From: Aestuariispira ectoiniformans | GTDB taxonomy: Bacteria; Pseudomonadota; Alphaproteobacteria; UBA8366; Aestuariispiraceae | Assembly: GCF_025136295.1 (NCBI RefSeq) | Contig: NZ_CP062788.1 | Coordinates: forward strand, 4,109,588 to 4,173,587 | Length of the DNA stretch: 64,000 nt | Reading direction: 5' to 3' | Shown: positions 3,678-41,570 of the stretch, piece by piece | Numbering within the stretch: the stretch's first letter is position 1 | Layout: every line of letters begins with the position of its first letter | Program-made: the position numbers and the translations under genes | The notes under the pieces: generated by a model | Databases searched by the model: none | What the model was told of the DNA's origin: nothing | What the model saw: the letters and a program-made list of their open reading frames with translations, nothing else

Positions 3678-3944
3678 ATGAAGCGCAGTCGGTTTAGCGA
3701 AGAACAGATTATCGGGATATTGAAGGAGCAGGAGGCCGGCCAGAAGACGGCGGATGTCTGCCGCCGTCATGGCGTAAGCGAGGGCACGTTCTACAAATGG
3801 AAGTCCAGGTATGGCGGGCTGGAAGTGTCGGAGGCAAAGCGTCTAAAGGCGCTTGAAGACGAGAACAGCCGGTTGAAGAAGCTGCTGGCCGAGGCGATGC
3901 TGGACAACGCCATGCTCAAGGATGTCGCTTCAAAAAAATGGTGA
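3678..3944 (+). CDS. IS3-family transposase OrfA
   Basis: OrfA supplies the DNA-binding N-terminus of the IS3 transposase. The 88-residue product starts [19 protein letters not shown], a typical helix-turn-helix of this group, and continues through [16 protein letters not shown] into a leucine-zipper-like segment ([20 protein letters not shown]) used for multimerisation. It ends at a TGA directly after a run of seven adenines at 3932-3938. In the orfA frame this reads A-AAA-AAA, the classic minus-one slippery heptamer, and it leads into the orfB frame at 3938. The intact family member would thus make an OrfAB fusion by programmed frameshifting. Confidence 0.9.
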
Positions 3945-4834
3945 CGCCCGCTGTCCGGCGACAAGCCGTCGCTCATCTGCGTGAAGCCCATGGGGTGAGC
4001 GAGCGGCGGGCGTGTCTTGTGTTGGGAGCGGATCGAAGTACGGTTCGTTACCGGTCCCGTCGATCGGACGATACCACGGTCCGGGAACGTTTGCGTGCCC
4101 TATCCCGAGAACGTCGCCGTTTCGGCTACCGCCGCCTGCATCTGCTGCTGGCCCGCGAGGGGATCACGATGAACCAAAAGAAGCTGAGGCGCCTGTATCG
4201 CGAGGAGAAACTTCAGGTGCGTCGCCGTGGCGGGCGGAAGCGTGCCTTGGGAACACGCGCGCCGATATCGCTGCCTGACGGACAGAACCAACGTTGGTCG
4301 CTGGACTTCGTATCGGATGCCTTCACCGATGGTCGTCGGTTTCGGATCTTTGCTGTGGTGGATGACTTCACGCGCGAATGTTTGGCCCTGGTCGCGGACA
4401 CGTCCCTGTCCGGTATCCGGGTTGCCAGAGAGCTTGATGCCCTGGTGTGGCAACGCGGGACCAAGCCCAAGACCATCGTAAGCGACAACGGGACGGAATT
4501 CACCAGCGTGGCAATCCTGCGTTGGAGCCAGGACCAAAAGGTGGTCTGGCATTACATCGCGCCAGGCAAACCCATGCGGAATGGCTTCGTTGAGAGTTTC
4601 AACGGACGACTGCAGGACGAATGCCTGAATGAGACACTGTTTACATCGCTCAGGCAGGCCCGCATCTAGCTGGCCGTTTGGAAGGAGGACTACAACACCG
4701 TCAGACCACATTCGAGCCTTGGCGGACTTGCCCCTGCCGAGTTTGCCGCAAAAGCCTGTCCGGGGCATGCCCCGGACAGGCTTGCCATTCACCAATCAAC
4801 GAGCCATCAATCAACCAAAGGACTCACCCTCTGA
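3938..4834 (+). pseudogene. IS3-family transposase OrfB, interrupted by a stop codon
   Basis: OrfB carries the DDE catalytic domain. The frame opens at ATG 3938 and shows the three acidic residues in [19 protein letters not shown] and [16 protein letters not shown]. An in-frame TAG at 4667-4669, directly after [10 protein letters not shown], stops translation after 243 residues. Read through, the frame continues LAVWKEDYNTVRPHSSLGGL to a natural TGA at 4832-4834 just inside the right repeat. Relatives usually have GAG (Glu) at the stop position, so one G-to-T change explains it. The product keeps DDE but loses about 55 C-terminal residues, so activity is doubtful. The lost tail includes a 32-bp palindrome, listed separately. 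Confidence 0.82.
4752..4783. repeat. perfect 32-bp palindrome inside orfB tail
   Basis: Each 16-base half reads AAGCCTGTCCGGGGCA on its own strand, and the two halves abut with no spacer. The sequence could form a very stable hairpin or cruciform. It lies in the part of orfB downstream of the nonsense codon and keeps the orfB frame open. It looks like a REP-type palindromic unit rather than transposase-derived coding sequence. Confidence 0.75.
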
Positions 4835-5479: not shown

Positions 5480-7828
5480 ATGAGCAAGATTGAATTCAAG
5501 ATAAGCACACATCTTAAAGATGTCATCGGACGCGACTTAGTGACAAATGAGTTTGTCGCAATTTTCGAACTTGTGAAAAACTCGTTTGATGCCAGAGCAA
5601 AGCACGTCTGGATTACATTCGATCTCGAGTCAGACCTGATCACCATCGTAGATGATGGCAAAGGCATGTCCGTGGACGATGTGAAGGATAAGTGGCTTTT
5701 TGTTGCTTATTCTGCAAAAGCAGATGGAACCGAGGATGCCGATAGCACCAGAGACTACCGCGATCGAATTAAGGTCGGCGGCTATGCCGGAAGCAAGGGG
5801 ATTGGGAGGTTCTCATGCGACACACTTGGGACGACACTCGAGCTTTATTCTTGCGTTGGGGAAAAAGGTGCCCCCGTCACTAAACTGAAAGTCGACTGGG
5901 AAGAGTTCGAACAAAACAGTAAGGACGAGTTCGATACGATTAAGGTGGAACTTGATGAGAATAGCTCTTTCCCAAAGACGGATGAAGTTGTTCCACCAAG
6001 CCCGCACGGTACCATGTTGCAAATCACAGGGCTACGCAATGAATGGGATGCGGACACCATCGCAAGACTACGTCGTTACCTGGCAAAGCTCATTGACCCC
6101 TTTGGAACCACGGACGACGTTGAAGTCTCATCGGTTCTTGTCGGTTCTGACCTAAACGACCAAGACTTAAACGGCCCCATTTCCAATGACATCGCAGACG
6201 TCTTGAGGGACAAGACGACCAGAATGGAAGTGGAGATCGCCGGCGGCAAAATACGCTCCTCCCTCATAGATCGTGGGCGCGTGATATATGAGATTTCGGA
6301 GGATAGCCCATACGAAGACCTGACAAATGCAACGATCCGAGGGGAGGTTTTCTTTCTCAATCGAAGCGCCAAAGCGACCTTTGCCCGTAGGATGAAAGTG
6401 CCGGTAGTAGAGTTCGGAAGCGTCTTCCTGTTCCTAAATGGCTTCCGGGTATTTCCCATCGGAGAGGAAGCCAACGACAGCTTCGGCCTGAACCGCAGGA
6501 AACAACAGGGTACCTCACGTTATCTCGGGACACGAGATGTTCTTGGGCGTGTCGACATCAAGGCCCCTCCTCGCATGTTCCGGGAGGCATCAAGCAGGGA
6601 TGCAGGGTTGATTGAGGACGCGCATTGGCGCGAACTCTATGACGCTGTGCGCAAGCACATGATTTTCAGGCTCGAGCGATATGTCGTGGGCGTGAACTGG
6701 CAGGACAGTGCTGATCAAAGTCGGGATACACCTGAAGGGCTTGAAACTGATCCCGCCCGGCGTAGAATTTTGACAGTAATTGGAGGATTTGCTCGATCCA
6801 AAGGTGTTGAGATTATCAGTTTCGACCGCGACATTCTGGAGTTGGCGGATGCAAGGGAAGAGGCCAGCCGAAAAGCACTTGAGGACCTGTCAATTATTGC
6901 GGAACGGGAGGGAGACACAATCCTCCTTAAGCGCATCAAGGAGACGCAAGCACAGATCGCCGAACTGGAACGGTCAGAGGCCGAAGCCAGAAAGGAGGCC
7001 CAACGTTATGCTGAAGAGAGTGCGAAATCTGATGCCAGGATTTCGCAGCTTGAGAAACAGGCTCAGTACCTTGCATCAGGACAAGATCTTGATGCTGAAC
7101 GCATTCGCCTCCTCTTGCATCAGGTAAATATTTATGCGGGCCATGTTGATGCCGGAACCGGGAGGGCACTGGCAAACACCGGTGACCTCCTTCGCCAGCT
7201 CGCCGATGTCGAGAATTTGGATGAAGATGACCTTGATGACTTGGTTGGATCACTCCGCCATGGCCTCCGACAAGTGCTTGATAACTTGTCCTATACCAGG
7301 CTCGAAAATGATCGGCTCCGATCAATTTCACGTTTCGCACCCAATATCCGGGTTGACCTCGAAACAAGTGATGTTGACGGCAACATTGTAGAATTTCTAT
7401 CGGAATACTTCTCTGTGTTGCTTGGTGACTCGTCACAACTTCCCACGCCAACCTTCGAATCGAACGACATTTCCCTTAATCGGACTTTCTCACCATTTGA
7501 CCTTGCCGTGATCGTGGACAACCTGATTGACAACGCGCGCAAGGCAAAAGCCCATGCGATCCTGTTCAAAGCCGGGCGCCGGAAAGCCGGAAAACGCCTT
7601 GTCATCAATGTTTCTGATGACGGTCTAGGCTTTGACCTAGGCCGGATGGACCCAGCACGCATCTTCGAGAAACACTACTCCGCCACCACAGGTGGTACGG
7701 GGCTTGGCCTCTATCACGTCCGGCAGGTTCTTGAGGAAATGGGAGGGTCAATTGAACTTGACCCCAATGGAGAGCCCGGCAGGGCTGATTTCGTGATCAC
7801 GATACCGGGGGCGATAAATGAACCTTGA
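5480..7828 (+). CDS. sensor-like protein with two GHKL ATPase domains
   Basis: The 782-residue protein has an N-terminal GHKL ATPase of the Hsp90/MutL/MORC kind and a C-terminal histidine-kinase-type GHKL domain. N-terminal motifs are the N box ELVKNSFDA (E30, N34, D37), DDGKGM at 58-63 and the lid GSKGIGRFS at 104-112. Residues about 455-545 are highly charged and probably coiled coil. A helical segment (LLLHQVNIYAGHV, near residue 545) sits where a dimerisation/phosphotransfer domain would be and contains candidate histidines. The C-terminal domain shows VDNLIDNA (about 678), SDDGLGFD (about 712) and GTGLGLY (about 738). The next gene overlaps by 11 bp and encodes a receiver protein, so phosphotransfer between them is likely but inferred. 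MutL/MORC-like GHKL ATPases are known beside bacterial restriction-modification genes, as here. There is no membrane segment, so it is cytosolic. Confidence 0.85.
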   Translation: MSKIEFKISTHLKDVIGRDLVTNEFVAIFELVKNSFDARAKHVWITFDLESDLITIVDDGKGMSVDDVKDKWLFVAYSAKADGTEDADSTRDYRDRIKVGGYAGSKGIGRFSCDTLGTTLELYSCVGEKGAPVTKLKVDWEEFEQNSKDEFDTIKVELDENSSFPKTDEVVPPSPHGTMLQITGLRNEWDADTIARLRRYLAKLIDPFGTTDDVEVSSVLVGSDLNDQDLNGPISNDIADVLRDKTTRMEVEIAGGKIRSSLIDRGRVIYEISEDSPYEDLTNATIRGEVFFLNRSAKATFARRMKVPVVEFGSVFLFLNGFRVFPIGEEANDSFGLNRRKQQGTSRYLGTRDVLGRVDIKAPPRMFREASSRDAGLIEDAHWRELYDAVRKHMIFRLERYVVGVNWQDSADQSRDTPEGLETDPARRRILTVIGGFARSKGVEIISFDRDILELADAREEASRKALEDLSIIAEREGDTILLKRIKETQAQIAELERSEAEARKEAQRYAEESAKSDARISQLEKQAQYLASGQDLDAERIRLLLHQVNIYAGHVDAGTGRALANTGDLLRQLADVENLDEDDLDDLVGSLRHGLRQVLDNLSYTRLENDRLRSISRFAPNIRVDLETSDVDGNIVEFLSEYFSVLLGDSSQLPTPTFESNDISLNRTFSPFDLAVIVDNLIDNARKAKAHAILFKAGRRKAGKRLVINVSDDGLGFDLGRMDPARIFEKHYSATTGGTGLGLYHVRQVLEEMGGSIELDPNGEPGRADFVITIPGAINEP

Positions 7829-8753
7829 ATTCGGCATCCTGTGGATAGAGGACGAATATTCCCCAGCAGAGGAGGAAGATTTGCGCGAGGCGGCTACTAA
7901 TGCCGGTTTCGTGGCCAATATCAGGAATTCATTGGACGGGGAAGAGATCGAGGAACTCGCGAAAGAGCAGAGGTGCTATCACCCGTTCGACTTCATCCTG
8001 CTAGATCTTAATTTGGCAAAAGGCGTGAAAGGCAATGCCCTCGCACCACGAATCAGACAACTTTTCCCCTCGACTCCAATTCTCTTTTATAGTGGGAGTT
8101 GCTCGGAAGACGAGCTTCGTCAACACATGGCCCACGATAAGATTGAAGGTGTTTTTTGTGCCCATCGGACTACCTTTCTTAAACGTGCATCCGAAATCAT
8201 TTCTAACCTCGCACAATCACTGAATCGATTGTCTGGGATGCGGGGACTTGCGATGGAGGTTGTGGCGAAAACTGATTCGCTTTGTAAGGAAGTTGTAGTC
8301 TCGCTCCACGAAAGAGGTCTTGTAGAAGGCTTCGACGAGAAACTTGCTAAAGAAGTGGTGAAGTATGCTCAAAGAACAGTTGACGAGTTTCCCAAGATTG
8401 ATGGTCTGAAAGCTCAATTGGAAAATAGGGCTGTCGATAGCATGAAGCTCTTTAAAGTATTTCGTGATTCACTTAAGGCAGCCATCCGGGATATGGAACC
8501 AGGAGAAGAACAAGATAGATTGAGGCATCTAAGCGAAAGGACGAGGGGTTTTCGTGATGATGTATTAGAATGCAGAAATACACTCGGTCATGCAAGGGAA
8601 ACCAAGACCGAAAATGGTTGGGAAATATGTGATTCGGATGGGAAGGTTATTATGACCGTTCATGATTTCCCAAATCATAGGAAAAATTTCCTGGAGAATC
8701 TCCAAGCCATTAGAGAAATCCATCAGTTCTTTGTCCCCTTAGAGGCCGACTGA
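7818..8753 (+). CDS. response regulator with a C-terminal HEPN-like domain
   Basis: The 311-residue protein begins with a receiver domain: acidic residues in LWIEDEY (E11-E13), the predicted phosphoacceptor D63 in FILLDLNL, and the PILFYSGS strand. The C-terminal half (about 160-311) is helical and is no known DNA-binding output domain. It contains LECRNTLGHARE, where R253, N254 and H258 form the RNxxxH signature of HEPN ribonucleases, followed by a polar ENGWEICD turn. A receiver fused to a HEPN domain suggests phosphorylation-controlled RNA cleavage; that is an inference. Translation is coupled to the GHKL gene by an 11-bp overlap. It is convergent with the methyltransferase gene. Confidence 0.75.
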   Translation: MNLEFGILWIEDEYSPAEEEDLREAATNAGFVANIRNSLDGEEIEELAKEQRCYHPFDFILLDLNLAKGVKGNALAPRIRQLFPSTPILFYSGSCSEDELRQHMAHDKIEGVFCAHRTTFLKRASEIISNLAQSLNRLSGMRGLAMEVVAKTDSLCKEVVVSLHERGLVEGFDEKLAKEVVKYAQRTVDEFPKIDGLKAQLENRAVDSMKLFKVFRDSLKAAIRDMEPGEEQDRLRHLSERTRGFRDDVLECRNTLGHARETKTENGWEICDSDGKVIMTVHDFPNHRKNFLENLQAIREIHQFFVPLEAD

Positions 8754-8804: not shown

Positions 8805-10091
8805 TCAATCGAGGCCTATTTCCTTGAGCACGAGGACGAGGTTTGCAAGTGCCTCTCCCAGCAGGGGCGGAACGGCGTTGCCGACTTGAGTATAACGCGG
8901 ACATGCTGATTTGCGTAACTTTCCGCCAGTGGTGTATGGCCCCTGAAACTCAAACCAGTCAGGAAATGATTGCAGTCTCGCATTCTCCCGAACCGTCAGG
9001 ATACGCGGTTCGCTATAGTGGATAAGGTCATCCGGCAAAGTCGTAATCGTGGCGGAAGGACGGTTACTAGCCATAGGCGTGGTAGCCTGCTTCTTGAGGC
9101 CAAATTTTTCTTTGTCATCCTTTGACAGAGTGCGACCCCGCCTGCACGTTTCCAGTATTCTGGTGAACCTGTCAGTAACGATCTCAGTATGACGAGGTAG
9201 GCGTAGGCTGTTTGGCGCGGTGCCGTTGACAATGCCTTGCCGCATCAACATCTGGTAATTTGTCAGCCGACGTGGGCGTTCATACCTGATTTGCTTGAAA
9301 CCGCTAACGCCACCATCGACTGCGTCTATGAGCTCCTTGCCCATGGTTTCTAAGTCCGACAAAGCTTGTTTTGCTGTAACCGGCTTAGAAACCGGCAGTT
9401 TCTTAGCCTTGAGAAAATCTTCACGTGAATCGCTGAGAACGTCAAAAGGGTCTTTTACCCAATCGCCATCTCTCTTCTCCGCGACAATGATAAATCGTGG
9501 GCGCAACTGAGGCACCCCCCAATTCGCTGATCCAACAAGCTTGCTCTTTGCCCTGTACCCAAGACCCTCGAGCCTCTGCATTACCTTTTGGGCATAAGGC
9601 ACTTCACCTTCTGAATCCGTGTCAAATTTGGCATTAAACCCCTTCACGTTTTCGATCAGAATAAAGCGTGGCTGGACTAACTCAACAACCTTCAGATACT
9701 GCTCTGTAAGCGTATTCCTTGGGTCATTTGGATCCCGGCGACCAGCTGATGAAAACCCCTGGCAAGGGGGCCCGCCAACAATTAGGTCGATTTCTCCACG
9801 AAGTTTGGTGAGATACGAAGAGTAATTATCTAGGAACTCGGTTATGTCATGTGCTTCGCACGGGAGCCATCCTGGCCAGTCGTATTCAAAACGCCCGGAA
9901 TCGATGAGGTTGTGCTTAAGGGTTGAAAAGGCGTCAGCATGCCTTTCTATAGCAAAGTTACCTTTCCAGCCTGCATTCAGCAAGCCCAGTGAAAGCCCTC
10001 CACACCCGGCAAATAAGTCAATGAACTTGCCCACGCATCTACCCTGAATAGCATTTTTGTTATTTTGCCCGTGGCTTGGAATCACATGCAA
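8805..10091 (-). CDS. DNA (cytosine-5) methyltransferase
   Basis: This enzyme transfers a methyl group from S-adenosylmethionine to C5 of cytosine in a specific DNA site. The 428-residue protein has the ordered motifs of the family: FIDLFAGCGG (motif I, residues 23-32), GGPPCQGFSSAGRR with nucleophile C110 (motif IV), FILIENVKG (motif VI), RPRF (motif VIII), RENARLQSFPDWFEF (motif IX) and QVGNAVPPLL (motif X). The target site cannot be read from sequence. It diverges from a vsr gene 61 bp away, the usual partner of Dcm-type enzymes. No restriction endonuclease for the same site is recognisable beside it, so it is either an orphan or protects against an unrecognised nuclease in this cargo block. 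Confidence 0.95.
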   Translation of the reverse strand: MHVIPSHGQNNKNAIQGRCVGKFIDLFAGCGGLSLGLLNAGWKGNFAIERHADAFSTLKHNLIDSGRFEYDWPGWLPCEAHDITEFLDNYSSYLTKLRGEIDLIVGGPPCQGFSSAGRRDPNDPRNTLTEQYLKVVELVQPRFILIENVKGFNAKFDTDSEGEVPYAQKVMQRLEGLGYRAKSKLVGSANWGVPQLRPRFIIVAEKRDGDWVKDPFDVLSDSREDFLKAKKLPVSKPVTAKQALSDLETMGKELIDAVDGGVSGFKQIRYERPRRLTNYQMLMRQGIVNGTAPNSLRLPRHTEIVTDRFTRILETCRRGRTLSKDDKEKFGLKKQATTPMASNRPSATITTLPDDLIHYSEPRILTVRENARLQSFPDWFEFQGPYTTGGKLRKSACPRYTQVGNAVPPLLGEALANLVLVLKEIGLD

Positions 10092-10152: not shown

Positions 10153-10629
10153 TTGGTAGATTTTTTGAACCCAATTGAGCGTAGCGAGCGCATGTCCCGA
10201 ATCCGGGGCAAGGACACCAAACCTGAATTTGTCGTTCGCCAACTCCTGCACGCTAACGGCTTTCGATATCGCCTGCATAGAAAAGACTTACCAGGGAGAC
10301 CCGACCTAGTTCTGCCAAAACATAAACTCGCGATATTTGTTCATGGTTGTTTCTGGCACGCGCACAATTGCCATATTTTCACTATGCCCAAAACCAAAAC
10401 GGCGTTTTGGAAATCCAAGTTCCAAACAAACATCGAGAGGGACATTAAAAACCGCGATGCCTTGGTTAAGGGTGGATGGCGCGTATTGTACATCTGGGAA
10501 TGTGCTATTTCAGGAAAAACACGATTAGCCAATGACGAATTGTTTCGCCAGTTTCGCCAGTTCCTGAAGAGCCAAAACCTTGATACAGGTGAAATAGAAG
10601 GAAGCTCAGCCAAGCCCCTTGGAAGCTAG
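10153..10629 (+). CDS. vsr: very short patch repair endonuclease Vsr
   Basis: Vsr nicks next to T:G mismatches that arise when 5-methylcytosine deaminates, starting repair to C:G. The 158-residue product matches the family length. From the TTG start at 10153, the catalytic residues fall at D51 (GRPDLV), H64 and H69 (FVHGCFWH), which are the same numbers as in E. coli Vsr, so this start is preferred over the internal ATG at 10192. The zinc-site motif GCFWHAHNC is intact. It is divergent from the cytosine methyltransferase, whose product it would protect from mutation, and its 3' end converges on tnsE with a 4-bp overlap. Confidence 0.95.
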   Translation: MVDFLNPIERSERMSRIRGKDTKPEFVVRQLLHANGFRYRLHRKDLPGRPDLVLPKHKLAIFVHGCFWHAHNCHIFTMPKTKTAFWKSKFQTNIERDIKNRDALVKGGWRVLYIWECAISGKTRLANDELFRQFRQFLKSQNLDTGEIEGSSAKPLGS

Positions 10630-12227
10630 CTGATATACCCCGCCATTCGGGCAAACCAGCCCTGCAATTCATCGGGCTCGAGATACCCTGGAGCTTTCGA
10701 ACGTGGATGTTTTACGCTTTGGTTCACTTGGCATTCCCGATTCAGGAATTTAGTCGGCCAACAAAGTGATCGCTTGACCACTCGCTGCATGACCTGATTA
10801 ACAAATTCGTCAGAATCCTGTGCAGAGAAGGTGAGTATCTTCGTCGCCAACGATTTCTTGGCATCGGATGTGTCCACCTCCAGAAGATGTCGGATATTGC
10901 CGCCGGCGGTTTTCACCACGACATGCATATAGCGTCGCCGCGAACCATCGGCATTGAGATAGAGGTGGCATCGCACCAATTCCGGCATTGGCAGGATATT
11001 CCGGCTCAACACCGCAATTCCTCCCTCATCTTCCAGAAGATCCACCAACCTATTAAACTGTGCGAACTTACCTTCCATATTTGCTAGGTCGACAGTTTCT
11101 TCCAACTGGTCAAAATCCGCACCGGGGACATGACCACTAGCAGTCCCTTCCGCCACACTGCCTGTGAGATTGACGCTGGCTTCCCCCTCTTCGTCACTTC
11201 CACCCGCAATACCGCCGGCATGTTTGCTCTTATCGATACGTTTAGTCTTAACGGGCTTTTGAAACTGCAGCCCAACATTCGGCGTATGGGCAATCAGTCG
11301 CGCACCGCTCCCTTCCTTAGCATCATCATCCTGAATTTCCAGATCATCGTCCTCCGGGACCGGAGCAACCGATTTCCCTCCGGCCTTTCCGCCTGGCTCG
11401 TATCCTTCAGGCGTCACGAAATGCACTTCCCCCTCCACACCGGAGTTTAGCCCCCTGACTCCCGTAATTTGGTAAACATAGAAAACGTTCAGCTTCTTCG
11501 CATAATGGCCACGAACTTCAATAGAACACCCAGCCAGGTTCGGTGGTTTAAAATCAAAAGCCCACCGGAGATATTTCGAACTCTCTTGTTGATGCCGCAA
11601 TCGATGGCCGTAAATGGTGTTAAACGAATCCTGAGCTTCATCGTTGAGAAGCAGCCATGCGAGATGAGCGCGATAGGCACTGTGACCGAGGTAATATTTT
11701 GGAAAATCGGTGCCTAGAAGCACTTCAATCACTGCCAAATCCGCCGACGGTCGATTAACGCGGAAGGAATCCGCAAGACCATTCGGTTGAAAGGCCAAAT
11801 GCGCCAGAAATGCTGATGGAAAGAATAGAACTCGCGCCAGCTCCAGTTTGGGTATCCATAACTGTACCCCATCCGCATGCATAAAATAGCATAGCTGCTG
11901 GCCTGCGTCGGCCGGTGGTACATTCCTTAAGAACAACGGGCAGTCCCGAATTTTCGCCTCCGGCCATGTTTCTATAGGGGGCAGAGTAAAGCTGCTGCGG
12001 TATCCGCGGTCTGTAAAGCTGGGAATTGAAGAACGATCATAATAGCGTCCCAAACCCAATTTAGGCATCAGGCCGAAATGGAGGTTACAAGGCGTCACTT
12101 CCTCCCCAACCAGATAATAGGCGGCGATTTGCCAGTCGCTGTCGATGACGCCCTTCCGCTTGAAACAATTCCCCAGAAACTTAAGGACTGATTTATCAGG
12201 AATCTTTCGAATTGTGACCCGGTTCAA
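10626..12227 (-). CDS. tnsE: Tn7-like transposition protein TnsE
   Basis: TnsE directs Tn7-type elements to replicating DNA, especially conjugal plasmids, through the sliding clamp and 3' recessed ends. The 533-residue product (Tn7 TnsE is 538) shows shared phrases along its length: PKLELARVLFF near residue 125, FDFKPPNLAG near 226, an acidic low-complexity linker (VPEDDDLEIQDDDAKEG), and the C-terminal VVKRSLCWPT. The start is TTG at 12227, overlapping the end of tnsD by 32 bp; no better start lies nearby. It is the last gene of the tns operon. Its presence implies that the element can use both chromosomal-site and plasmid-directed pathways, as Tn7 does. Confidence 0.9.
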   Translation of the reverse strand: MNRVTIRKIPDKSVLKFLGNCFKRKGVIDSDWQIAAYYLVGEEVTPCNLHFGLMPKLGLGRYYDRSSIPSFTDRGYRSSFTLPPIETWPEAKIRDCPLFLRNVPPADAGQQLCYFMHADGVQLWIPKLELARVLFFPSAFLAHLAFQPNGLADSFRVNRPSADLAVIEVLLGTDFPKYYLGHSAYRAHLAWLLLNDEAQDSFNTIYGHRLRHQQESSKYLRWAFDFKPPNLAGCSIEVRGHYAKKLNVFYVYQITGVRGLNSGVEGEVHFVTPEGYEPGGKAGGKSVAPVPEDDDLEIQDDDAKEGSGARLIAHTPNVGLQFQKPVKTKRIDKSKHAGGIAGGSDEEGEASVNLTGSVAEGTASGHVPGADFDQLEETVDLANMEGKFAQFNRLVDLLEDEGGIAVLSRNILPMPELVRCHLYLNADGSRRRYMHVVVKTAGGNIRHLLEVDTSDAKKSLATKILTFSAQDSDEFVNQVMQRVVKRSLCWPTKFLNRECQVNQSVKHPRSKAPGYLEPDELQGWFARMAGYIS

Positions 12228-13764
12228 CTGATCGGGCCTCCAGATTCTTGATTAAGACTTCGGTCGACGCCCGGATGGTTTCTGCTCTCACCCCTGCCAA
12301 CCGCTTGATCCGCCACGCCGAAGGCACACATCCAGCCCCTACCAATTGTCGATACGCAACCTGGCATCGTCGCTTTTGATGCTCCTCTATACTTTCTGCC
12401 CGTTTTTCCAAAAAACTACGCGATAGCGGCAACTTGTCCAAATTTTTCTCAAGGGTCGACCCGTTCGTGAAATGCCCAAGATACCAGGACGCTGACCATC
12501 TCTTTGGGTGATCCAGATGCCTCTGCACTTGACGTCGAATAGCGATTAATCGGCGGCAAACCTCATAATCCCTGGCTTTCCAGTCCACACGTCGCTGCCG
12601 TCCCTCACCGACAAATTTATGGTTCTCGTTCACCCGGAGAAGCCAGTCCCGATCATGTCGAAAAAGCCAAGCATATGTGGCTTGGCCGCCTGACAGCACG
12701 AATCGGGCATGTATTATCCCCTTTGAACCGGACTGCTCCAGAAGGGCACACCATTGCTCGCGATGTTCCAAAACCTCGGCCGCCGCACCATTGTCGCTGG
12801 AGGGTCGGCACGAAGAATCTCCGCTATCCAAATGCGCAACAGTCTTGAGAATATCTTCAACGGCCTCATTCCTCCCGAAGGCTCCCCAGACAACCAAATG
12901 CTCCAGGAAGGAAAAGGACTTCCGGTGTTTCCTGAACATCGCAATAAGCCAGGAATTCTGCACCTCCTGTAGAGGTAGGCCGTGCCGGGCAAGCCAGTCG
13001 TCAGACCAGCAGCCCCGGACTTTCTGGACAATTTCCCGGTAGCGAACCTGCCTCCCTCTAGAGAGACCGCTATCTTCCGCTAGATGTCGATAAAAATTGG
13101 TCCATTGTTTGTACGTCGGCGATCGGCACGGGGGAGCATCAAGAAGCTGAAGAATGCGGCCCGCCAGCCAGCACGCATTCCCCTTCGCAGACTGCTCTTT
13201 GTCAGGTGCTAGCCATTTCGGGCATGTTCGCGGCGTCGCAGGAGAATATCGGTGTTTTTCATTTCGTTGGTAGCTGACAACGGAACTCTCAAACGGTCCA
13301 TGCTTGAGGCAAATATCCTGCTCACCGACCTGCCAGTCACGACGCCAATAGAACTCTCCATGCTTGAGATATTGTTCCTGCAAGCAAGCAGGGCAGTAAC
13401 GCAGATATGCAGGTTGTTTGACACGGCCTGCGCAGCGGCCGAGAAGTGTGTGTATGTGGCCCCCTCTACCATGGAACATCCAATCGAGCGCAGCTTGCCT
13501 CCGGCCCTCCGGGACAAAGGGGGCATACAATGGAAACAGGGTATGCTTGTAAACAACATCCAGAGCGCTGATATGCCAATAACGACCAACACGGCCCAGT
13601 AGCGCTTCCAAGTGCACATTCATGTCAACCGACGCGGTCAGTTGACGATCTCCAAACAAGTCATCCAATACCTGTTTGGCTTCTACCGTCCCTGTGTGGA
13701 CAGCGTAGCGTGCCAGAACACTGTAGAGCAGTTCTCCCGGATAGGGGACCGGGAAGTATTGCAT
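12196..13764 (-). CDS. tnsD: Tn7-like target selector TnsD (TniQ family)
   Basis: TnsD binds the 3' end of glmS and recruits the TnsABC machinery to attTn7. The 522-residue product has an N-terminal TniQ domain (PYPGELLYSVLARYAVHTG) and a CCCH zinc site at C124, C127, C152 and H155 (YCPACLQE and CLKHG), the same residue numbers as in Tn7 TnsD. The C-terminal half is basic and would bind DNA. Its ATG at 13764 follows the tnsC stop by 4 bp. The position of this transposon 24 bp from the glmS stop shows the pathway has worked in this lineage. Confidence 0.95.
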   Translation of the reverse strand: MQYFPVPYPGELLYSVLARYAVHTGTVEAKQVLDDLFGDRQLTASVDMNVHLEALLGRVGRYWHISALDVVYKHTLFPLYAPFVPEGRRQAALDWMFHGRGGHIHTLLGRCAGRVKQPAYLRYCPACLQEQYLKHGEFYWRRDWQVGEQDICLKHGPFESSVVSYQRNEKHRYSPATPRTCPKWLAPDKEQSAKGNACWLAGRILQLLDAPPCRSPTYKQWTNFYRHLAEDSGLSRGRQVRYREIVQKVRGCWSDDWLARHGLPLQEVQNSWLIAMFRKHRKSFSFLEHLVVWGAFGRNEAVEDILKTVAHLDSGDSSCRPSSDNGAAAEVLEHREQWCALLEQSGSKGIIHARFVLSGGQATYAWLFRHDRDWLLRVNENHKFVGEGRQRRVDWKARDYEVCRRLIAIRRQVQRHLDHPKRWSASWYLGHFTNGSTLEKNLDKLPLSRSFLEKRAESIEEHQKRRCQVAYRQLVGAGCVPSAWRIKRLAGVRAETIRASTEVLIKNLEARSVEPGHNSKDS

Positions 13765-13768
13765 CGCC

Positions 13769-15385
13769 TTAGGCTGATTTCGGCAGCCCCTCCTTCAAAC
13801 TCAGCACTATTCCTGCATCTTCGAAGGCTTCATAGGCTTTACCCTCGACGCCATTCGCAAGTACTGATCGCAAGTCATCGCTATCGAGTATATTCCATTG
13901 GGAGCGTTTGACTGGTTTTGCCCTTTTTGGTGCCGGCTGGTCCGGCGCCTTGACCGCAAACTTGGTCAGTTCGTGGATAGCCGTCGCCAATGGTAAGTTA
14001 GGCTTCCTCGCCAGAAATTCATCGACAAGCGGTATGGCAACATCTTGCTGCACACCCATACTTTTCAAGATATCGACCAATCGCCCAGCCTTTGAACCCG
14101 ACGGCATGGATGGCGACGACACCGTTTCATGATCTATCCTCGTCGCTAACTCAGCGGATACAATTTGAGCACTCACCGGAGGCATTTCCAAATCTCCGTA
14201 TAAGGCAATAGCCTCATAGTCGCCTTCGCGGAGCGCCTTCAACATCGGATGGACCGGCCGGAATTCATCCTCATATACTTGCCGAAGCAAACCCGGTGAA
14301 ATGCGTTCAAACTGGGTAACAATAGCGCGATGCTGTGACAGCGCGAACAGCTTCACCGCGACATCTATGACCCCCTGAGACAGATCGTAGAACGTCTGCC
14401 TCAGCTCGTCGTCCAGCGGCCCAGTTTTCTGCAGCCACTGATATTTCCAAAGCAACTTGGTGAATGCGTCCCACTGCGATCCTGGGAGCATCCTGTCCCA
14501 ATCCAGGCTCCCCATACCAGCTGCGCGTCGCGCGGTTCTCATGTCCAGCCCGAACAGACCACGCGCTTTGGGTGTACCAACCATCACCACTGGTACGCCG
14601 ATTGTGTTCACCAATGTCACGAAGAAATTGAGCATCTTCTTGATGCCGCCGGATTTGGCTTCGTTCAGATGCTGAATCTCATCAATTACAAGAACTCCTA
14701 GCGCGTGGAGGTTGGCCAAATGCGCCATGCGCGCCAACATTACCTCCAAACTGAGGCGCTTGCTTCCGTAACGTTTGGTATAGTCTGTATCCAGGATTCG
14801 GTCTGTTGCCTGGAAGAAACTGTAACACAGGCTCTTTAGGGTGCCATCGTGTGGGCAATCCAACTTGAGATATGTGAGTTGGGTAATATTGTATTCCTCG
14901 TGGAATAGCGCCTGCGGATATGTTGAGAGAATTCGATTGAGCGCCGTAGTTTTGCCACATCCCGAGCAACCTATGAAGGCCAGGCTTTTTGCCGTCGAGC
15001 GAACCGTCTCGAAAACTTTGGCTTTCAAATCCTTCTGCATCAGGCGTTCATAGCCGTTTTGCAGCTGGCTGTAGTAGGCACCGGTCTTGGGGTTACGCCC
15101 CGTATATCCCCCACGGATCAGCAAGGACAATTTGCTTTCCAACTCCAAATGGACAGTCAATGGCTGAAAAAAATTATCCAGCAATCGCATGATCGCGTGT
15201 TGGCGGATCACTCCCGGCAATGCTTGTTCCATATTGTCGAAAGCAGGTAACTGTCGCAGTGTTCTTGCTACTTCCACGCTGTCCCGGATTGCCGGCAAGG
15301 CAGCTATCAGCGGATTGTCCCTATACTCAGGAAGTCCGGGATCACAGTAGACAGCCTTATATATACGCCTGGGCACTTCAGTCAT
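13769..15385 (-). CDS. tnsC: Tn7-like regulator ATPase TnsC
   Basis: TnsC is the AAA+ ATPase that links the target selectors to the TnsAB transposase and gives target immunity. From the preferred ATG at 15385 the product is 538 residues (Tn7 TnsC is 555). The Walker A motif GCSGCGKT is at 139-146, and a Walker B motif LVIDEIQHL lies about 110 residues later. The ATG at 15385 overlaps the tnsB stop by 8 bp and has a purine-rich GGACGAGG upstream; a start seven codons earlier is possible. N-terminal sequence (VPRRIYKAVYCDPGLPEY) is typical of Tn7 TnsC rather than the shorter TnsC of Cas-associated Tn7 relatives. Confidence 0.95.
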   Translation of the reverse strand: MTEVPRRIYKAVYCDPGLPEYRDNPLIAALPAIRDSVEVARTLRQLPAFDNMEQALPGVIRQHAIMRLLDNFFQPLTVHLELESKLSLLIRGGYTGRNPKTGAYYSQLQNGYERLMQKDLKAKVFETVRSTAKSLAFIGCSGCGKTTALNRILSTYPQALFHEEYNITQLTYLKLDCPHDGTLKSLCYSFFQATDRILDTDYTKRYGSKRLSLEVMLARMAHLANLHALGVLVIDEIQHLNEAKSGGIKKMLNFFVTLVNTIGVPVVMVGTPKARGLFGLDMRTARRAAGMGSLDWDRMLPGSQWDAFTKLLWKYQWLQKTGPLDDELRQTFYDLSQGVIDVAVKLFALSQHRAIVTQFERISPGLLRQVYEDEFRPVHPMLKALREGDYEAIALYGDLEMPPVSAQIVSAELATRIDHETVSSPSMPSGSKAGRLVDILKSMGVQQDVAIPLVDEFLARKPNLPLATAIHELTKFAVKAPDQPAPKRAKPVKRSQWNILDSDDLRSVLANGVEGKAYEAFEDAGIVLSLKEGLPKSA

Positions 15386-17471
15386 CGGCCTCGTCCTCAT
15401 CATCAAACAAGCTGTCGACCATGTCCGGGTAGGAAAAATCCGATTCGTCTTCCTTCACCAATCGGATAATCTCCGCCGAGCCCTTCTGCCTTTTCTTGTG
15501 GATTTTGGCTGCAGCAGCCTTTCGCTCCCGATGTTTTTCTTCTTCGCGATTTCCGCGGATGTCACGGAGTCTCTCCCGACTGCTGACATCACCTAAATCT
15601 GGCTTCTGCTCCCGGGCATGCGCTGCGATTTCTTCCAGACGTCGCTCCAATTCCGCTTGCGTGACTTCGGACCTGGATTTCGCCTTGGCCTGAGTGCGGG
15701 TTTCCGCGTCCTTCTTCCTCCACAGCTCATGGAAAGTCATACCCGCAAACCGTCTGCTTCGATTCGTGAGGTCACATGGCCAATAGTCAGGTTTGTTAGC
15801 ATCGGGAAACAAGTAAATCCGGTCCACATAGCGATGGTCATAGGCTACAAGAACCTTTTTGGGACGATTGCCTTTCACCCGATCGAACCAACCGGTCTGC
15901 AGAGCCTCCTGGCAAGTGTAGTAGGCGCCGAACAGACATATTCCCAGTTCGGAAACAGTAGCTTCCTTTTGAGGCAACAAACTAATAGCAACAATCTTTT
16001 CCGGGAACCTACGGAGCCGACCGGTTCGGTTGGCCAATCCCCAGCTCCAAAGTTCCAGGGGCACTGAAGGCAGGTCATCGGGCAAGTCGGCGTCTCTGTC
16101 GTATTTTTCCAAGGAGCGGTTCTGGTTGTGCCAAAGCACACTATGTACGATCATCCTAGTAAAATCGTCGATCGTCAGCGTCGCATCCAGACGATAATCG
16201 CGTACTCCACGCTTCTTGCTGGGTTTACCGTCGACAACGCCCTCTGCGAATGGTTTGAACTCTTCCTGCACAGTACGGAAATAACGTTCGACGATTCCCT
16301 TTGCATCGCCGCGATAGGCTGGCGCATTTTCAATTCTCACCCCAAACCTTGTGATTAGGGCATTCACCTGATGACCGAGCAACTCGCCGCGATCCGCGAG
16401 AATGGCATCTGGGAGACCCGACGTCGGCCAATCCTCCATTTCAATGGAGATACCAAGCTGATCGCAATAAGAAACTTTGTCCGCACTGGCATGCGCCAGA
16501 GCCATCATCGCACTGGCATAGGACGGCCCTTCAAAACCGACATAAAGTCCCGCAACCATACGAGAAAAAACGTCTATTACGAAGTAGACAACTGGACGAC
16601 CGACGATCTTTGACCTGCCCACTGTCGAAACCAGGTAAACATCTGCGATCGTCGCGTCGATCTGAAAGCGTGCCCCCGGTCCGAACACCTCCGAGTTGGA
16701 AGTGCTTGTCAGAGGCCGGATGTCTTTGTTGTATATGATATCGGATGTTCTTCTGCGAACAACTTCCCGCGGTTCGTACTCCCTACTTGCAAAAAACTGG
16801 AATTGCCGTTTGGTGGGGTATTCCCAATCTTCGGAAGGTGCGTAGCGCGCCTTATACAGATTCATAAAATGCCGGTAGGCCGAAGCCAGAGAACGCTTCT
16901 TCTTGGACTTCAAATATGCGCTTTCAATCGACATCCGGAACAGGCGCTCGATATCAGGGGTGATAAGAACACGTTCGCCTTCTCTTCGTGATCGCTTTCT
17001 CCCTAGCCGCCCTTTCGCCTTCCGGCGCTTTCCCGCGGCCCCAGACAGGTGATAATCAGGAAGCAACGCGTTGATCGTCATGCCACGCTGCCAATAGCGT
17101 CTTAGAAGACGATAAATCGTTTGTTTGGTTGTTTGGTGCTGACCGAGCACCTTCCTGACCAGAGCACCACGTTCGGCTTTGTCGAATATTGCCGGTGTAT
17201 CGACAATATCCCGGATCAATCGCCAGCCACGTTCCCGAACTTGAAATGCTTTGCTGTCTTCATCAGCGAATGCCATTGTCTGTGCGAGAAATGGGTCATC
17301 AACAACCGTCGCGGCACCTTCCGCAAACAACCGCTCCAGTTCTTCGGTGTCGCGTTTCTCCGGGAACGCCCCACTGCCATCCAGGTCGATAAGAATGGTA
17401 GTCTCACTATTGGACCACAAAACCCTATATTGGCCGCCGGAAAGCGAGAACACGGTATTAACCTGCAGCAC
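15378..17471 (-). CDS. tnsB: Tn7-like DDE transposase TnsB
   Basis: TnsB is the retroviral-integrase-type transposase that binds the repeats at the transposon ends and makes the 3' breaks and strand transfer. From the GTG at 17471, which has a strong GGAGGGAGG ribosome binding site, the product is 697 residues (Tn7 TnsB is 702) and begins VLQVNTVFSL, like the start of Tn7 TnsB. The DDE triad is D272 (RFQIDATIAD), D360 (ILADRGELL) and E395 (KGIVERYF), one residue from the Tn7 numbers. An upstream TTG at 17489 is possible. The gene overlaps tnsA by 14 bp. The C-terminal tail is charged and would contact TnsC. Confidence 0.96.
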   Translation of the reverse strand: MLQVNTVFSLSGGQYRVLWSNSETTILIDLDGSGAFPEKRDTEELERLFAEGAATVVDDPFLAQTMAFADEDSKAFQVRERGWRLIRDIVDTPAIFDKAERGALVRKVLGQHQTTKQTIYRLLRRYWQRGMTINALLPDYHLSGAAGKRRKAKGRLGRKRSRREGERVLITPDIERLFRMSIESAYLKSKKKRSLASAYRHFMNLYKARYAPSEDWEYPTKRQFQFFASREYEPREVVRRRTSDIIYNKDIRPLTSTSNSEVFGPGARFQIDATIADVYLVSTVGRSKIVGRPVVYFVIDVFSRMVAGLYVGFEGPSYASAMMALAHASADKVSYCDQLGISIEMEDWPTSGLPDAILADRGELLGHQVNALITRFGVRIENAPAYRGDAKGIVERYFRTVQEEFKPFAEGVVDGKPSKKRGVRDYRLDATLTIDDFTRMIVHSVLWHNQNRSLEKYDRDADLPDDLPSVPLELWSWGLANRTGRLRRFPEKIVAISLLPQKEATVSELGICLFGAYYTCQEALQTGWFDRVKGNRPKKVLVAYDHRYVDRIYLFPDANKPDYWPCDLTNRSRRFAGMTFHELWRKKDAETRTQAKAKSRSEVTQAELERRLEEIAAHAREQKPDLGDVSSRERLRDIRGNREEEKHRERKAAAAKIHKKRQKGSAEIIRLVKEDESDFSYPDMVDSLFDDEDEADD

Positions 17472-18306
17472 GGCGCCCTCCCTCCGCAACGAGGGACGAG
17501 TTCACAGCGATATCCGATGCCATCAACGTCTGATAAGGGACTTGAATATCAAACAACAAATAACGTTGGCTGAGCAGAATTCGGAGCCAGTAAAGCGCCT
17601 CTCCCGCTTCCAAACTGTAATTCAAGTCCAATTGCTGGGCCAAAGCGACAAGCTTTCTGCGAGGTGACTCTTCAATACAACGCAGAAACAGTTGGGTATA
17701 TCTCTGGAGATCCTCAGCCGACGGACTCTCCATGGAAACAGCGGTCAACCATTTAATATTGGCAACAGCGTCCTTTGAGACATCCCGATCGGTTATCAGA
17801 AACCATGGGACATCCAGTGCCTTCCAGTAGCGACGTTCCAGCTCCAACTTCTCGACGGTCCGAGCATCGTTGAGGTCGCTCGCGTATTTAACCTGAATGG
17901 CAAATTTTCTGTGGATCCAGGACGGCGAATCAACCAGGAAATCGGATGTCGCGACCTGGTTAACGCCACCCATTGCCGGATGGCGTATCCCGGCTTCCGC
18001 CGCCAAACTGACCGTCTTGTCCCGCCGGAGCGGATATTGCTCGCGAATGTCGGTGACGTCAGCACTCCAATCAAGAGACAGGAATACTGCCAGTTCCAGA
18101 TCGGAAAGCAGGTGGTGTATGCGGTTCGTTTTAGCGCCTAGCACGCGATGCGAGCGGCCTTTCGACGAAACATCCTGGACTGTAAGGAAGGGTTTGTAAT
18201 CTGACAGCCGCCCCTGGCCACAGCCCTTCTCGAGGCGCCGTTCGATATCGCGTTCAGACAATCCCGGTGTCTTGGCCAACGTCACCTCCCTGATATAGGG
18301 AGGCAA
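17458..18306 (-). CDS. tnsA: Tn7-like endonuclease subunit TnsA
   Basis: TnsA is the restriction-enzyme-like partner of TnsB that cuts the 5' strands, which makes transposition cut-and-paste. The 282-residue product has the catalytic set E71 (SDLELAVFLSL), D122 (TSDFLVDS), Q138 and K140 (FAIQVKY). The spacing of 51, 16 and 2 residues is identical to E63, D114, Q130 and K132 of Tn7 TnsA. The start is TTG at 18306; a GTG at 18285 is an alternative. It is the first gene after the right end, so its promoter must lie within or beside the TnsB binding repeats, which would allow TnsB to repress the operon as in Tn7. Confidence 0.95.
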   Translation of the reverse strand: MPPYIREVTLAKTPGLSERDIERRLEKGCGQGRLSDYKPFLTVQDVSSKGRSHRVLGAKTNRIHHLLSDLELAVFLSLDWSADVTDIREQYPLRRDKTVSLAAEAGIRHPAMGGVNQVATSDFLVDSPSWIHRKFAIQVKYASDLNDARTVEKLELERRYWKALDVPWFLITDRDVSKDAVANIKWLTAVSMESPSAEDLQRYTQLFLRCIEESPRRKLVALAQQLDLNYSLEAGEALYWLRILLSQRYLLFDIQVPYQTLMASDIAVNSSLVAEGGRRAAG

Positions 18307-18326
18307 CGTAACACGTCCACCGGCGG

Positions 18327-18386
18327 TATGATACTTTATTGTTCAGTATGATACTTTATTGTCGAGTATGACACTTTATTGTTCTC
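18327..18386. repeat. three tandem 20-bp TnsB-type sites in the right end
   Basis: Three direct repeats run back to back: TATGATACTTTATTGTTCAG (18327-18346), TATGATACTTTATTGTCGAG (18347-18366) and TATGACACTTTATTGTTCTC (18367-18386). On the reverse strand they contain ACAATAAAGT, the core of Tn7 TnsB binding sites. Tn7 has four overlapping sites at its right end; three are visible here. They lie directly upstream of tnsA and so probably also act as its operator. Confidence 0.88.
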
Positions 18387-38582: not shown

Positions 38583-39641
38583 TTAGGATGCTTCGTAGCT
38601 CATCGCAATGAGTGCGGATACATTTTCGATATCTTTCTTCGACTTGATTGTGATTTCCAAGTCGCCGGTGCCGAAATGCCCGATTTGGCGCACGTCACGC
38701 ATCATCATTGGATCCATGTCAACGGTGTCGGGATCAAGGTTCAAGTAAACGCGCACAACACGTTTTTGATTGTATATTTGGACTGACGCAAAGTTCCGGT
38801 TTCGCCGAAATGCCATATAATGCTTCTGTGGGTGAATAGTTACATCGTCGCCTAATGCCCGAAGCGTCCCAGCAAGTTTGTCATAGACTGCCCGCAAGTC
38901 CTTTGGTGCAGCCTCGATTTTGTCCTTTACCGTGACAACTGGCTTCCCAGCCTTCACTTTCACGCTACCGCCTCGGCTCGGAACAGCTTCTTCCAGCTCT
39001 TCAGCCAGTTTCGGCAATACAAGAAGCCGATGTATCAGCCCTTCAACCGTGTCCAGTATGACGGCGATTTGCTCTTTCGTTGGTGCCCAACCGCGATGGG
39101 CAGCGGCGTTACCCGCATCGACTACGGGATTCAAGATTTCTCGTTCGTGTTGAGACAGCATGCCGCCGTCCTGCAAGGCTTGTAGACCTTTCTGGAAATT
39201 ACCCTTGTCACCAACAGTCAACACAATCAAGCGATCTATCAACGTCCGCGAACCGAACGTTGCGAGATAATGAGAGCCGGTTTGAAGGGAATTATAGATT
39301 TCGTCTGAAATCTCACGAAGAGTAGGGTCTGGAAGGTCTTCAAACCACGCTGGCGGATTGCGGTAGGTGACGGGCGGATAGATTACCTCGTCCCATTTTC
39401 CCTGGTTGTCAGATTCGCCTTTATACGGTTTATCAAAATATTCAACATCTTCCGAAAACAGCGTCATCTTGACAAGTTCAAGATTCTCGCAACCACAGCA
39501 TTCAATTATCAGCATGCGTTGCTTAAACCAAACCATCTGATTGTCGTCGTCATCATGCTTGTTGTATTCGCCGCGAACAAAATGCTTGGTCTTCTGCTTA
39601 CAGGCATTGCAGAAAAACCATTCAATTCGCTCTTCAGTCAT
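38583..39641 (-). CDS. DUF4145-DUF5655 protein with N-terminal zinc ribbon
   Basis: The 352-residue protein has an N-terminal zinc ribbon (CNACKQKTKH near 11-20 and CCGCE near 48-52), a central DUF4145-like helical domain (residues about 115-215) and a C-terminal DUF5655-like domain (YDKLAGTLRALGDDVTIHPQ, VQIYNQKRVVRVYLNL, IKSKKDIENVSALI). DUF4145 is related to HEPN domains; the place of the RNxxxH motif reads DAGNAAAHRGW, so Arg is Gly177 while N178 and H182 remain. That suggests an inactive or structural HEPN. It is the last gene of a six-gene operon headed by hsdR, coupled by a 4-bp ATGA overlap to the HNH gene. Both DUFs are found in defence-gene neighbourhoods. Confidence 0.75.
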   Translation of the reverse strand: MTEERIEWFFCNACKQKTKHFVRGEYNKHDDDDNQMVWFKQRMLIIECCGCENLELVKMTLFSEDVEYFDKPYKGESDNQGKWDEVIYPPVTYRNPPAWFEDLPDPTLREISDEIYNSLQTGSHYLATFGSRTLIDRLIVLTVGDKGNFQKGLQALQDGGMLSQHEREILNPVVDAGNAAAHRGWAPTKEQIAVILDTVEGLIHRLLVLPKLAEELEEAVPSRGGSVKVKAGKPVVTVKDKIEAAPKDLRAVYDKLAGTLRALGDDVTIHPQKHYMAFRRNRNFASVQIYNQKRVVRVYLNLDPDTVDMDPMMMRDVRQIGHFGTGDLEITIKSKKDIENVSALIAMSYEAS

Positions 39642-40483
39642 GACTTTTCCTCTGACTGCTTTTCGTCGTATAGAGCAAAATTCAGCTCCATGACGAATTC
39701 GTCAGGGTCATCGCCGGACACCTCGCAAAAATCCAAAATTTCTATCCAAGGGTTTCCACCCGGTTTTCGATCCCAAAGACTAACTATATATTTTCCCGGA
39801 ATGTGATCTTCATCGATGCTGCCCAGACAATGATCTTCGATAAGTTCCATATTGCTCTTAAGCTTGGCGTGAGAGATCCTGAATACGGAAATCACCTCTT
39901 GGACGGGAAGCCCCCCCAGATCTCTCCGCTTCATCCTCTCCGCGATGCGCAGTGCAAAACGTCGTTGATTTAATGGAAGCTCAGATAATTTCTCAACGAA
40001 TTGCCTAACCCCATCTACTTCTTCTTTCGCCGTACATATTTCTTCAATTTTAAGCGCTTTGGAGAGACGCTTAAGGTTATTGGGCATCTTGGGCATAGTT
40101 TGTTGAGTGAGATCTGCGTATTCCTCTAGAAACTGCAACTCTGCCTTGCGAAACCGTTCTTCGTGTTGCTTTTTGTAACGCTTTAGCAGTTCGGCTGGGA
40201 ACTTATCTTCATTCGCTTTATCGTCGATCACATCGTGGCAGTTTGCACAGACAACAAATAGGTTCTCTATTGCGCGACGATCTTCGTTGCTCATGTTCTC
40301 TTCAAATCGAGCGCCACCCTTTTCTGCTGCATAAATATGCGCGACCTTTCCAATCATTGTCCCTAACTCATGAACCAGTGGATTGTTGCAGCCTGGCATT
40401 GCGCACAAGTTTCCGCTATGCGCAAAAAGCTTTTTAAGAACGCTTGTTGTTGGCGTGAGACGTTGAACTTCTTCCTTACTCAT
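39638..40483 (-). CDS. HNH endonuclease-domain protein
   Basis: From ATG 40483 the product is 281 residues. The N-terminal 90 residues form an HNH nuclease: C28 and C32 (LCAMPGCNN), H49 (KVAHIYA), N74 (AIENLFVVC), and C79, C82, H83 (CANCHDVID). The remainder is helical and charged, then ends with a domain (YIVSLWDRKPGGNPWIEIL) I do not recognise. The ATG lies 8 bp inside the upstream HEPN/zinc-ribbon gene, and the stop overlaps the next gene by 4 bp, so it is translated as part of the type I restriction operon. An upstream in-frame start at 40549 would lie deep within the previous gene and is less likely. Confidence 0.82.
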   Translation of the reverse strand: MSKEEVQRLTPTTSVLKKLFAHSGNLCAMPGCNNPLVHELGTMIGKVAHIYAAEKGGARFEENMSNEDRRAIENLFVVCANCHDVIDDKANEDKFPAELLKRYKKQHEERFRKAELQFLEEYADLTQQTMPKMPNNLKRLSKALKIEEICTAKEEVDGVRQFVEKLSELPLNQRRFALRIAERMKRRDLGGLPVQEVISVFRISHAKLKSNMELIEDHCLGSIDEDHIPGKYIVSLWDRKPGGNPWIEILDFCEVSGDDPDEFVMELNFALYDEKQSEEKS

Positions 40484-41570
40484 CTCGTGTCCACCCTGCT
40501 TTTCCTTCGCACTTTTCGCAGCCCGACCAGTAGGTACCTTCTGCTTCACCGGTGAATGGCTCGCTGCACCACTCGCAATATTCGATTTTTCCAGGCCAAC
40601 TAAAACAGTTAAAACAAAATACTATCTCGCCATTATCAAGCGTGCCCGCCGTTTCAGGAATGTGCCCACACTCGGTGCAAAATGCGGGTTGATTGGGTTC
40701 GTCGTGCCTCGCTTTACCTTCAATCGTGTATTCAAAAAGTACGTCGTCTAAATCAATTGACGAGCCACAGTGCTCGCACGTCCACTGCTCGCATTCTTCC
40801 AGCGACAGTAGGGTTTTCTCTTTGCAATCTTCGTCAGGGCAGATATGCAGTAGGAAGCTTTCTTCAGCGAGGCAAACCCGGCATTCGTGCTCTTGTGGGC
40901 CGATTTCGTCAAGCACTTGGGCCTCAAAGCCGCAGGCACTGCAAGTTGCCAAAATCGCACCATCTTGACGAGCAGCCTCTAGTTCTGGTCGGATTTGGTC
41001 GTAGACGGTAGTAAGGTACTCGCGATGGCGCTTCATCGCTAAGTTGATTTCTGCCACTTGATGCTGAAAATCGGCAAATACTTCTTGCCATTCGTCGCCA
41101 AGTAGGCGGCGCAGGTAGAACCACCCCCGACATTGCTCCAAGATAACAACTTCTTTTTGTTTCTCTTGGTCCGGCTCGTTTGCATTGATGGGATGGTGGA
41201 AATGCACCATCCTGTTTCTATGCTTTCTTAGTTCATCGAATGAATTGAAAGCATTGGGAGAAACAGCAACCTTGGCCACCTTTTTTAACCGTTGAACAGC
41301 CTGCTTCAAGCCAACAGTGTGAGCTTCGCCGTTCAGGAATTCATCAATGTCCGCTTTATTGGGGTCGACTACGATTAGTGTCCAGTGTTCGTGCATCAGG
41401 CGCGCTTTTACAAGAAGTTCAACGCCAGAGTAGAAATTTATAACGGAGTATTTCAGTGTGTCCGGCGAGACATTTTCCCAAAGCTGCTCGATAGCTCTTG
41501 TGACGAAGCCAAAGCCATTTTCGCATAGGTGTGTGAATTGCTCATCGTGGGTCAGTATCCTTCTAACCAT
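40476..41570 (-). CDS. HEPN-motif protein with C-terminal zinc ribbons
   Basis: The 364-residue protein has an N-terminal helical domain (residues 1-180) containing DELRKHRNRMVHFHH, where R118, N119 and H123 make a complete RNxxxH HEPN ribonuclease signature. The C-terminal half is a string of zinc ribbons with CxxC pairs (CSACG, CRVC, CEHCG, CTECG, CFNC, CEWC, CEKC). This pairing of a HEPN domain with nucleic-acid-binding zinc ribbons fits an RNA-cleaving effector or a toxin; that role is inferred. Its ATG at 41570 directly follows the hsdS stop codon with no bases between (TAGATG), so the restriction operon translates it. Confidence 0.75.
   Translation of the reverse strand: MVRRILTHDEQFTHLCENGFGFVTRAIEQLWENVSPDTLKYSVINFYSGVELLVKARLMHEHWTLIVVDPNKADIDEFLNGEAHTVGLKQAVQRLKKVAKVAVSPNAFNSFDELRKHRNRMVHFHHPINANEPDQEKQKEVVILEQCRGWFYLRRLLGDEWQEVFADFQHQVAEINLAMKRHREYLTTVYDQIRPELEAARQDGAILATCSACGFEAQVLDEIGPQEHECRVCLAEESFLLHICPDEDCKEKTLLSLEECEQWTCEHCGSSIDLDDVLFEYTIEGKARHDEPNQPAFCTECGHIPETAGTLDNGEIVFCFNCFSWPGKIEYCEWCSEPFTGEAEGTYWSGCEKCEGKAGWTRDE

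Follow-up and report, generated by a model that had tools for sequence, protein, structure and literature searches.

In the Detocs system, a histidine-kinase/receiver phosphorelay reportedly turns on an enzyme that serves as the effector of phage defence, which we take here as a lead only; the effector is said to be of the nucleoside phosphorylase type, and the system reportedly works without a paraMORC module, a HEPN domain or a DNA methyltransferase. The nearest published counterpart is a two-component-like family, HEF_HK (PF19191)/Response_reg_2 (PF19192), described in 2021 (Bellieny-Rabelo et al, 2021; PMC8011034); like the sensor analysed here, its kinase-like protein is cytoplasmic and carries an N-terminal HATPase_c_3 and a C-terminal HATPase_c domain, and its gene neighbourhood likewise includes a receiver protein, a C5 methyltransferase and sometimes Vsr. 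The general architecture of dual-HATPase protein, receiver and C5 methyltransferase thus has a published precedent (PMC8011034), in which the term HEPN is absent and no HEPN output is reported. MORC/paraMORC ATPases of restriction–modification (R-M) systems also combine an N-terminal GHKL module with a nearby DNA methylase and Vsr (Iyer et al, 2008; PMC2292703). However, these ATPases work with helicases or nucleases, and that study mentions neither receivers nor two-component partners, whereas here the GHKL module forms one protein with a histidine kinase. In the Ymh family, HEPN domains are fused to paraMORC (Anantharaman et al, 2013; PMC3710099), again bringing together a paraMORC ATPase and a HEPN RNase in the vicinity of R-M genes; there, the HEPN domain sits directly on the ATPase, whereas in our locus it appears to sit on a separate receiver, connected to the ATPase by a putative phosphorelay. 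The Shedu protein VcSduA, which has a GHKL N-terminus and a tested role in phage defence, resembles the arrangement proposed below in that its GHKL ATPase domain is proposed to control an effector nuclease, but its DNase is part of the same chain and it works without kinase, receiver or methyltransferase (PMC12137116). Finally, a figure legend of the DefensePredictor study (PMC13092281) places HATPase and REC domains among predicted defence proteins, and overlap of these predictions with the present family is possible.

The locus studied here lies in a 64,000-nucleotide stretch of the Aestuariispira ectoiniformans genome (the window). It contains a sensor gene (5480..7828, plus strand, 782 aa; ORF call and Pfam) and a response regulator gene (7818..8753, plus strand, 311 aa; ORF call, Pfam, AlphaFold and conservation), whose positions and 11-bp overlap agree with the original prediction. 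That prediction described a two-gene unit and omitted the adjacent C5 methyltransferase, Vsr and Tn7-like context. The cytosine-5 DNA methyltransferase gene (8805..10091, minus strand; PF00145, E = 4.1e-53) is convergent with the sensor/regulator pair, and beyond it lies a gene for a Vsr mismatch endonuclease (10153..10629, plus strand; PF03852, E = 5.7e-32; TIGR00632). Vsr guards methylated cytosine against C-to-T mutation.

Next to Vsr, the Tn7-like transposition genes TnsE, TnsD/TniQ, TnsC, TnsB and TnsA (10626..18306, minus strand; Pfam) make up a complete TnsABCDE set at 10626-18385 of the window, at the 3′ end of glmS. The right end of the element (18327..18382, plus strand) carries three TATGATACTTTATTGT-type sites, copies of a 16-bp site at 20-bp spacing, a count that was reached by 0 of 100 shuffles in the site scan; the glmS 3′ end (minus strand) starts about 35 bp past them. 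Given the Tns genes and the right end beside glmS, a Tn7-like element inserted at its usual target carries the sensor, regulator, methyltransferase and Vsr genes as cargo. We looked for the left end of the element and did not find it; an IS3-type transposase gene is located at 3938-4669 and may have disrupted it. Among the relatives described below (numbered with the prefix L), Tns genes occur in the flank of L096 only, most relatives lying outside Tn7-like elements.

The view of the first gene product as a dual-GHKL sensor holds, with Pfam finding a paraMORC/MutL-type GHKL ATPase (HATPase_c_3, residues 25-156, E = 3.4e-20) and a C-terminal histidine-kinase ATPase (HATPase_c, residues 674-776, E = 4e-22). 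Between these domains lie a middle region, a coiled coil and a DHp-like helix with H547. Both ATPase domains are kept in all 60 relatives scanned with Pfam. In an alignment of 87 sensors, both GHKL domains keep their ATP-binding residues almost without exception, including N681/N685 and the glycine-rich motifs conserved in the kinase domain, and H547 is present in 86. The C-terminal half can be aligned with structurally characterised histidine kinases, and H547 lies in the helical region that precedes it. Residues 7-216, covering the N-terminal ATPase, match the BbrUII/HgiDII restriction enzymes of NF050001 (E = 8.9e-23), and judging by sequence this ATPase belongs with the paraMORC ATPases of R-M systems (PMC2292703). 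In PADLOC, the sensor gives weak partial matches to restriction enzymes, via the GHKL domain only. Membership in the HEF_HK/Response_reg_2 family was considered and ruled out by Pfam: HEF_HK (PF19191) is matched by 0 of 60 sensors of the present family, and Response_reg_2 (PF19192) has no match in the window regulator and matches 6 of 77 relatives weakly (best E = 0.0021). In a genuine HEF_HK locus, the kinase has 988 aa and the regulator 525 aa.

The response regulator consists of a receiver (residues 1-133) with the phosphoacceptor D63, followed by a helical region of 180 residues that contains a HEPN-type domain (about 138-305). The receiver is recognised by Pfam just under the curated cut-off (Response_reg, residues 16-104, E = 1.3e-6); its residues E11/D12, D63 and S92 are all present, and the AlphaFold model (pLDDT 92.7-93.6) together with Foldseek gives a confident receiver fold. 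As noted originally, R253, N254 and H258 form an RNxxxH motif (R253-N254-T-L-G-H258, codons at 8574..8591, plus strand), the predicted RNase active site. The motif satisfies the HEPN pattern Rx4-6H, in which N, D or H usually follows the arginine. In the model, helix 245-258 ends in this motif and is followed by a beta-hairpin and by helix 281-305. In descriptions of HEPN domains, the penultimate core helix ends with the motif, and a beta-hairpin directly after the motif has been described for Csx1 (PMC3710099); the regulator agrees with both descriptions.

Profile comparisons point in the same direction. The C-terminal domain aligns with Abi_2 over 119 columns (hhalign P = 0.00097), keeping RN..AH in register and placing R142/D153 against the conserved R and E of Abi_2, and less strongly with HEPN_Swt1 (P = 0.0034) and HEPN_MAE_28990 (P = 0.0039), whereas non-HEPN controls gave P = 0.81 and 0.72, and the value for one accepted HEPN family against another was P = 0.22. 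These comparisons were pairwise, with probabilities of just 9-22%, and are thus support rather than proof. Consistently, when 77 C-terminal domains were scanned singly, the commonest matches, all weak, were again Abi_2, HEPN_Swt1 and HEPN_MAE_28990. No HEPN family passes the Pfam cut-off for the window regulator, PADLOC returns no match for it, and Foldseek finds receivers only with the whole protein and no significant PDB or viral match with the isolated C-terminal domain. The proposed HEPN fold is therefore supported by the predicted topology and the profile comparison, but not by structural search. Motif, topology and profile comparison together make it very probable that the C-terminus is a HEPN domain, as had been suggested, in the place of a DNA-binding output. 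Separately, a gene encoding DUF4145, another HEPN family, together with DUF5655, adjoins a type I R-M locus (HsdR, HsdM, HsdS) at 38586-47308 of the window.

Relatives were collected by searching across genomes with a five-sensor alignment, which yielded 355 sensor relatives, of which 80 loci were read; locus counts refer to 79, one copy of an earlier locus having been dropped. Searches with the regulator alone (pattern scans of viral and genome contigs, and tblastn of plasmids) had returned nothing, whereas the sensor alignment succeeded. In these 79 loci, the gene immediately downstream of the sensor is nearly always of the receiver type, and 51 of 78 sensor/regulator pairs share a 4-nt stop–start overlap. 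Among the 82 downstream receiver-type proteins long enough to judge, a set that includes a few loci from other searches, 76 carry an RNxxxH-type motif in the equivalent region, so the match is not a chance one; the remaining six carry another output domain and not a degenerate copy of the motif. The expected invariance of the key residues is seen in the receiver-HEPN alignment, where D63, R253 and H258 are each present in 77 of 77 sequences, N254 in 73 and an acidic residue (D or E) at position 153 in all 77; this set was chosen partly by the motif, and in the unfiltered 83 regulators, which include the six with other outputs, the corresponding figures are 94% for R, 89% for N, 98% for H and 100% for D63. 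A small clade (L080, L082 and L093) has R-I-E-F-A-H for R-N-x-x-x-H, keeping the arginine and histidine and losing the polar residue. In L049 (Gluconacetobacter diazotrophicus PA1 5; 10295-12440), an IS3-family transposase gene (10553-11407) interrupts the response regulator; the sensor, methyltransferase and Vsr remain.

Receiver-HEPN proteins are found in at least ten phyla, yet within the window's class just 4 of 385 genomes have the sensor (E ≤ 1e-25), the pattern of a mobile trait. The sensor/regulator pair is a real, widespread and coherent system. The earlier remark that no named system has this exact pair stands for the databases and open-access papers searched, although it did not take the parallel 2021 family into account (PMC8011034); PADLOC, NCBIfam and PHROGs yield partial ATPase or receiver matches only. 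What is new here is the putative receiver-HEPN effector, the distinctive feature of the locus within the paraMORC/two-component/C5-methyltransferase kind.

The two-gene description proved too narrow, as 77 of the 79 loci also contain a C5 methyltransferase gene (75 identified by script, plus L104 and L107, in which its overlap with the called sensor start exceeded the script limit) and 22 contain Vsr. The methyltransferase gene usually lies directly upstream on the same strand or convergently downstream. It is not nearby in two Pseudomonas loci, L052 and L058, which keep the pair and Vsr. No family of restriction nucleases recurs beside the module, any one family accounting for at most 3 of 137 flanking proteins. 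A classical type II R-M system was accordingly rejected, there being a methyltransferase but no recurrent restriction endonuclease among the 137 neighbours. Since the methyltransferase is constant and no nuclease recurs, we regard the methyltransferase as a core part, with the receiver-HEPN protein occupying the place expected of the restriction enzyme.

The effector position is not filled by HEPN alone. The sensors of L120, L115, L109 and L041 are followed by a receiver of 225-230 residues without a HEPN domain and then by a protein of 210-238 residues, encoded directly after the receiver gene (L120:11032-11670, L115:4802-5437, L109:11009-11713 and L041:3435-4073, minus strand). Its HG and C residues are invariant (GHG ... 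SC.S), a pattern reminiscent of caspase-fold proteases, and we read this partner, at the level of motifs, as a putative caspase/CHAT-like protease; the sole family hint, for one of these proteins, is a weak Pfam match to the separase family Peptidase_C50 (E = 0.053). In the sensor tree, L120 falls within a group whose partners are receiver-HEPN proteins, which suggests at least two swaps of the output, and this exchange supports reading the receiver's partner as an effector. More distant relatives have longer receivers of 362, 464 and 525 aa (L043:8071-9156, L044:8461-9852 and L126:4171-5748, respectively) with other C-terminal domains; those of L043 and L126 have a similar phrase, NPVCDL and QPPCDS.

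The gene set probably amounts to an anti-virus or DNA-policing system that has so far escaped recognition. More specifically, we give an even chance to an R-M-like defence module in which the restriction arm is a phosphorelay-controlled RNase, reading its parts, their linkage and their residues from sequence; we infer the trigger, the direction of the signal, the RNase activity and the outcome. The C5 methyltransferase would mark host DNA, and the N-terminal paraMORC ATPase of the sensor would recognise unmarked DNA or an abnormal DNA state, leading the C-terminal kinase domain to autophosphorylate H547. The phosphate would then move to D63 of the receiver, which would free or dimerise the HEPN domain, and the ensuing RNA cleavage would stop growth or phage replication, while Vsr would repair mutations that arise from methylation. 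The residue set of a two-component system is present (phosphoacceptor H547, a kinase ATP-binding domain and receiver D63, the latter in 83 of 83 regulators), and a His-to-Asp relay is likely given the kinase-like C-terminal half, the position of H547 in the preceding helical region and the complete receiver. The trigger is a guess from gene linkage: the constancy of the methyltransferase suggests that the sensor reads the DNA methylation state. The two Pseudomonas loci without a nearby methyltransferase count against this, as its loss should kill if under-methylation is by itself enough to fire the effector, unless a different methyltransferase makes up for it. With somewhat less than even confidence, we extend the proposal to a widespread class of epigenetically gated immunity, in which methylation would mark self, a paraMORC kinase would read its absence and a His-Asp relay, rather than a DNase, would fire interchangeable effectors, a HEPN RNase in most lineages and a caspase-like protease in others.

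The same genes may be read differently. In one unlikely alternative, the pair is a two-component regulator of the neighbouring methyltransferase, and the helical domain of the response regulator controls expression by RNA binding, without cleavage. The authors of the 2021 study suggested that signalling governs R-M systems (PMC8011034), and some HEPN domains that lack the motif probably bind RNA only (PMC3710099); here, however, the catalytic motif is retained, most loci have no R-M nuclease to regulate, and the putative cysteine-protease partner of the sister sensors fits an effector better. A second alternative concerns what the module is selected for. Addiction by R-M systems is well established, and the module might mainly maintain its transposon, with loss of the methyltransferase leading to under-methylation and the RNase killing or stalling the cell, so that defence would be secondary. 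The Tn7-like cargo position and the tight linkage of methyltransferase and effector are in keeping with such a role, a form of which is discussed for R-M systems in PMC8011034, but we consider it improbable because most relatives reside outside Tn7-like elements and two loci hold the pair without the methyltransferase. Addiction and R-M-like defence are one mechanism and differ in selective benefit only. Least probable, and indeed very unlikely, is that the kinase acts as an antidote, constant phosphorylation of D63 silencing the RNase until a phage blocks the kinase or exhausts the ATP pool: HEPN toxins are often paired with modifying regulators (as in MNT-HEPN pairs) and the sensor and regulator genes are translationally coupled, but a role in DNA sensing, and not in constant silencing, is indicated by the large N-terminal ATPase related to restriction proteins and by the DNA methyltransferase linked to the pair.

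If the R-M-like defence module is correct, it would use DNA methylation as a mark of self, a two-component phosphorelay as the alarm and RNA cleavage as the response, and would thereby join two usually separate fields, DNA methylation and two-component signalling. Because H547, D63, R253 and H258 are conserved, every step can be tested, and the Pseudomonas loci L052 and L058 provide a natural test of methylation gating of the effector. A conserved methyltransferase that looks solitary would gain a partner. Bacterial paraMORC ATPases are relatives of eukaryotic MORC proteins whose function in bacteria is poorly understood, and the system would give them a testable role.
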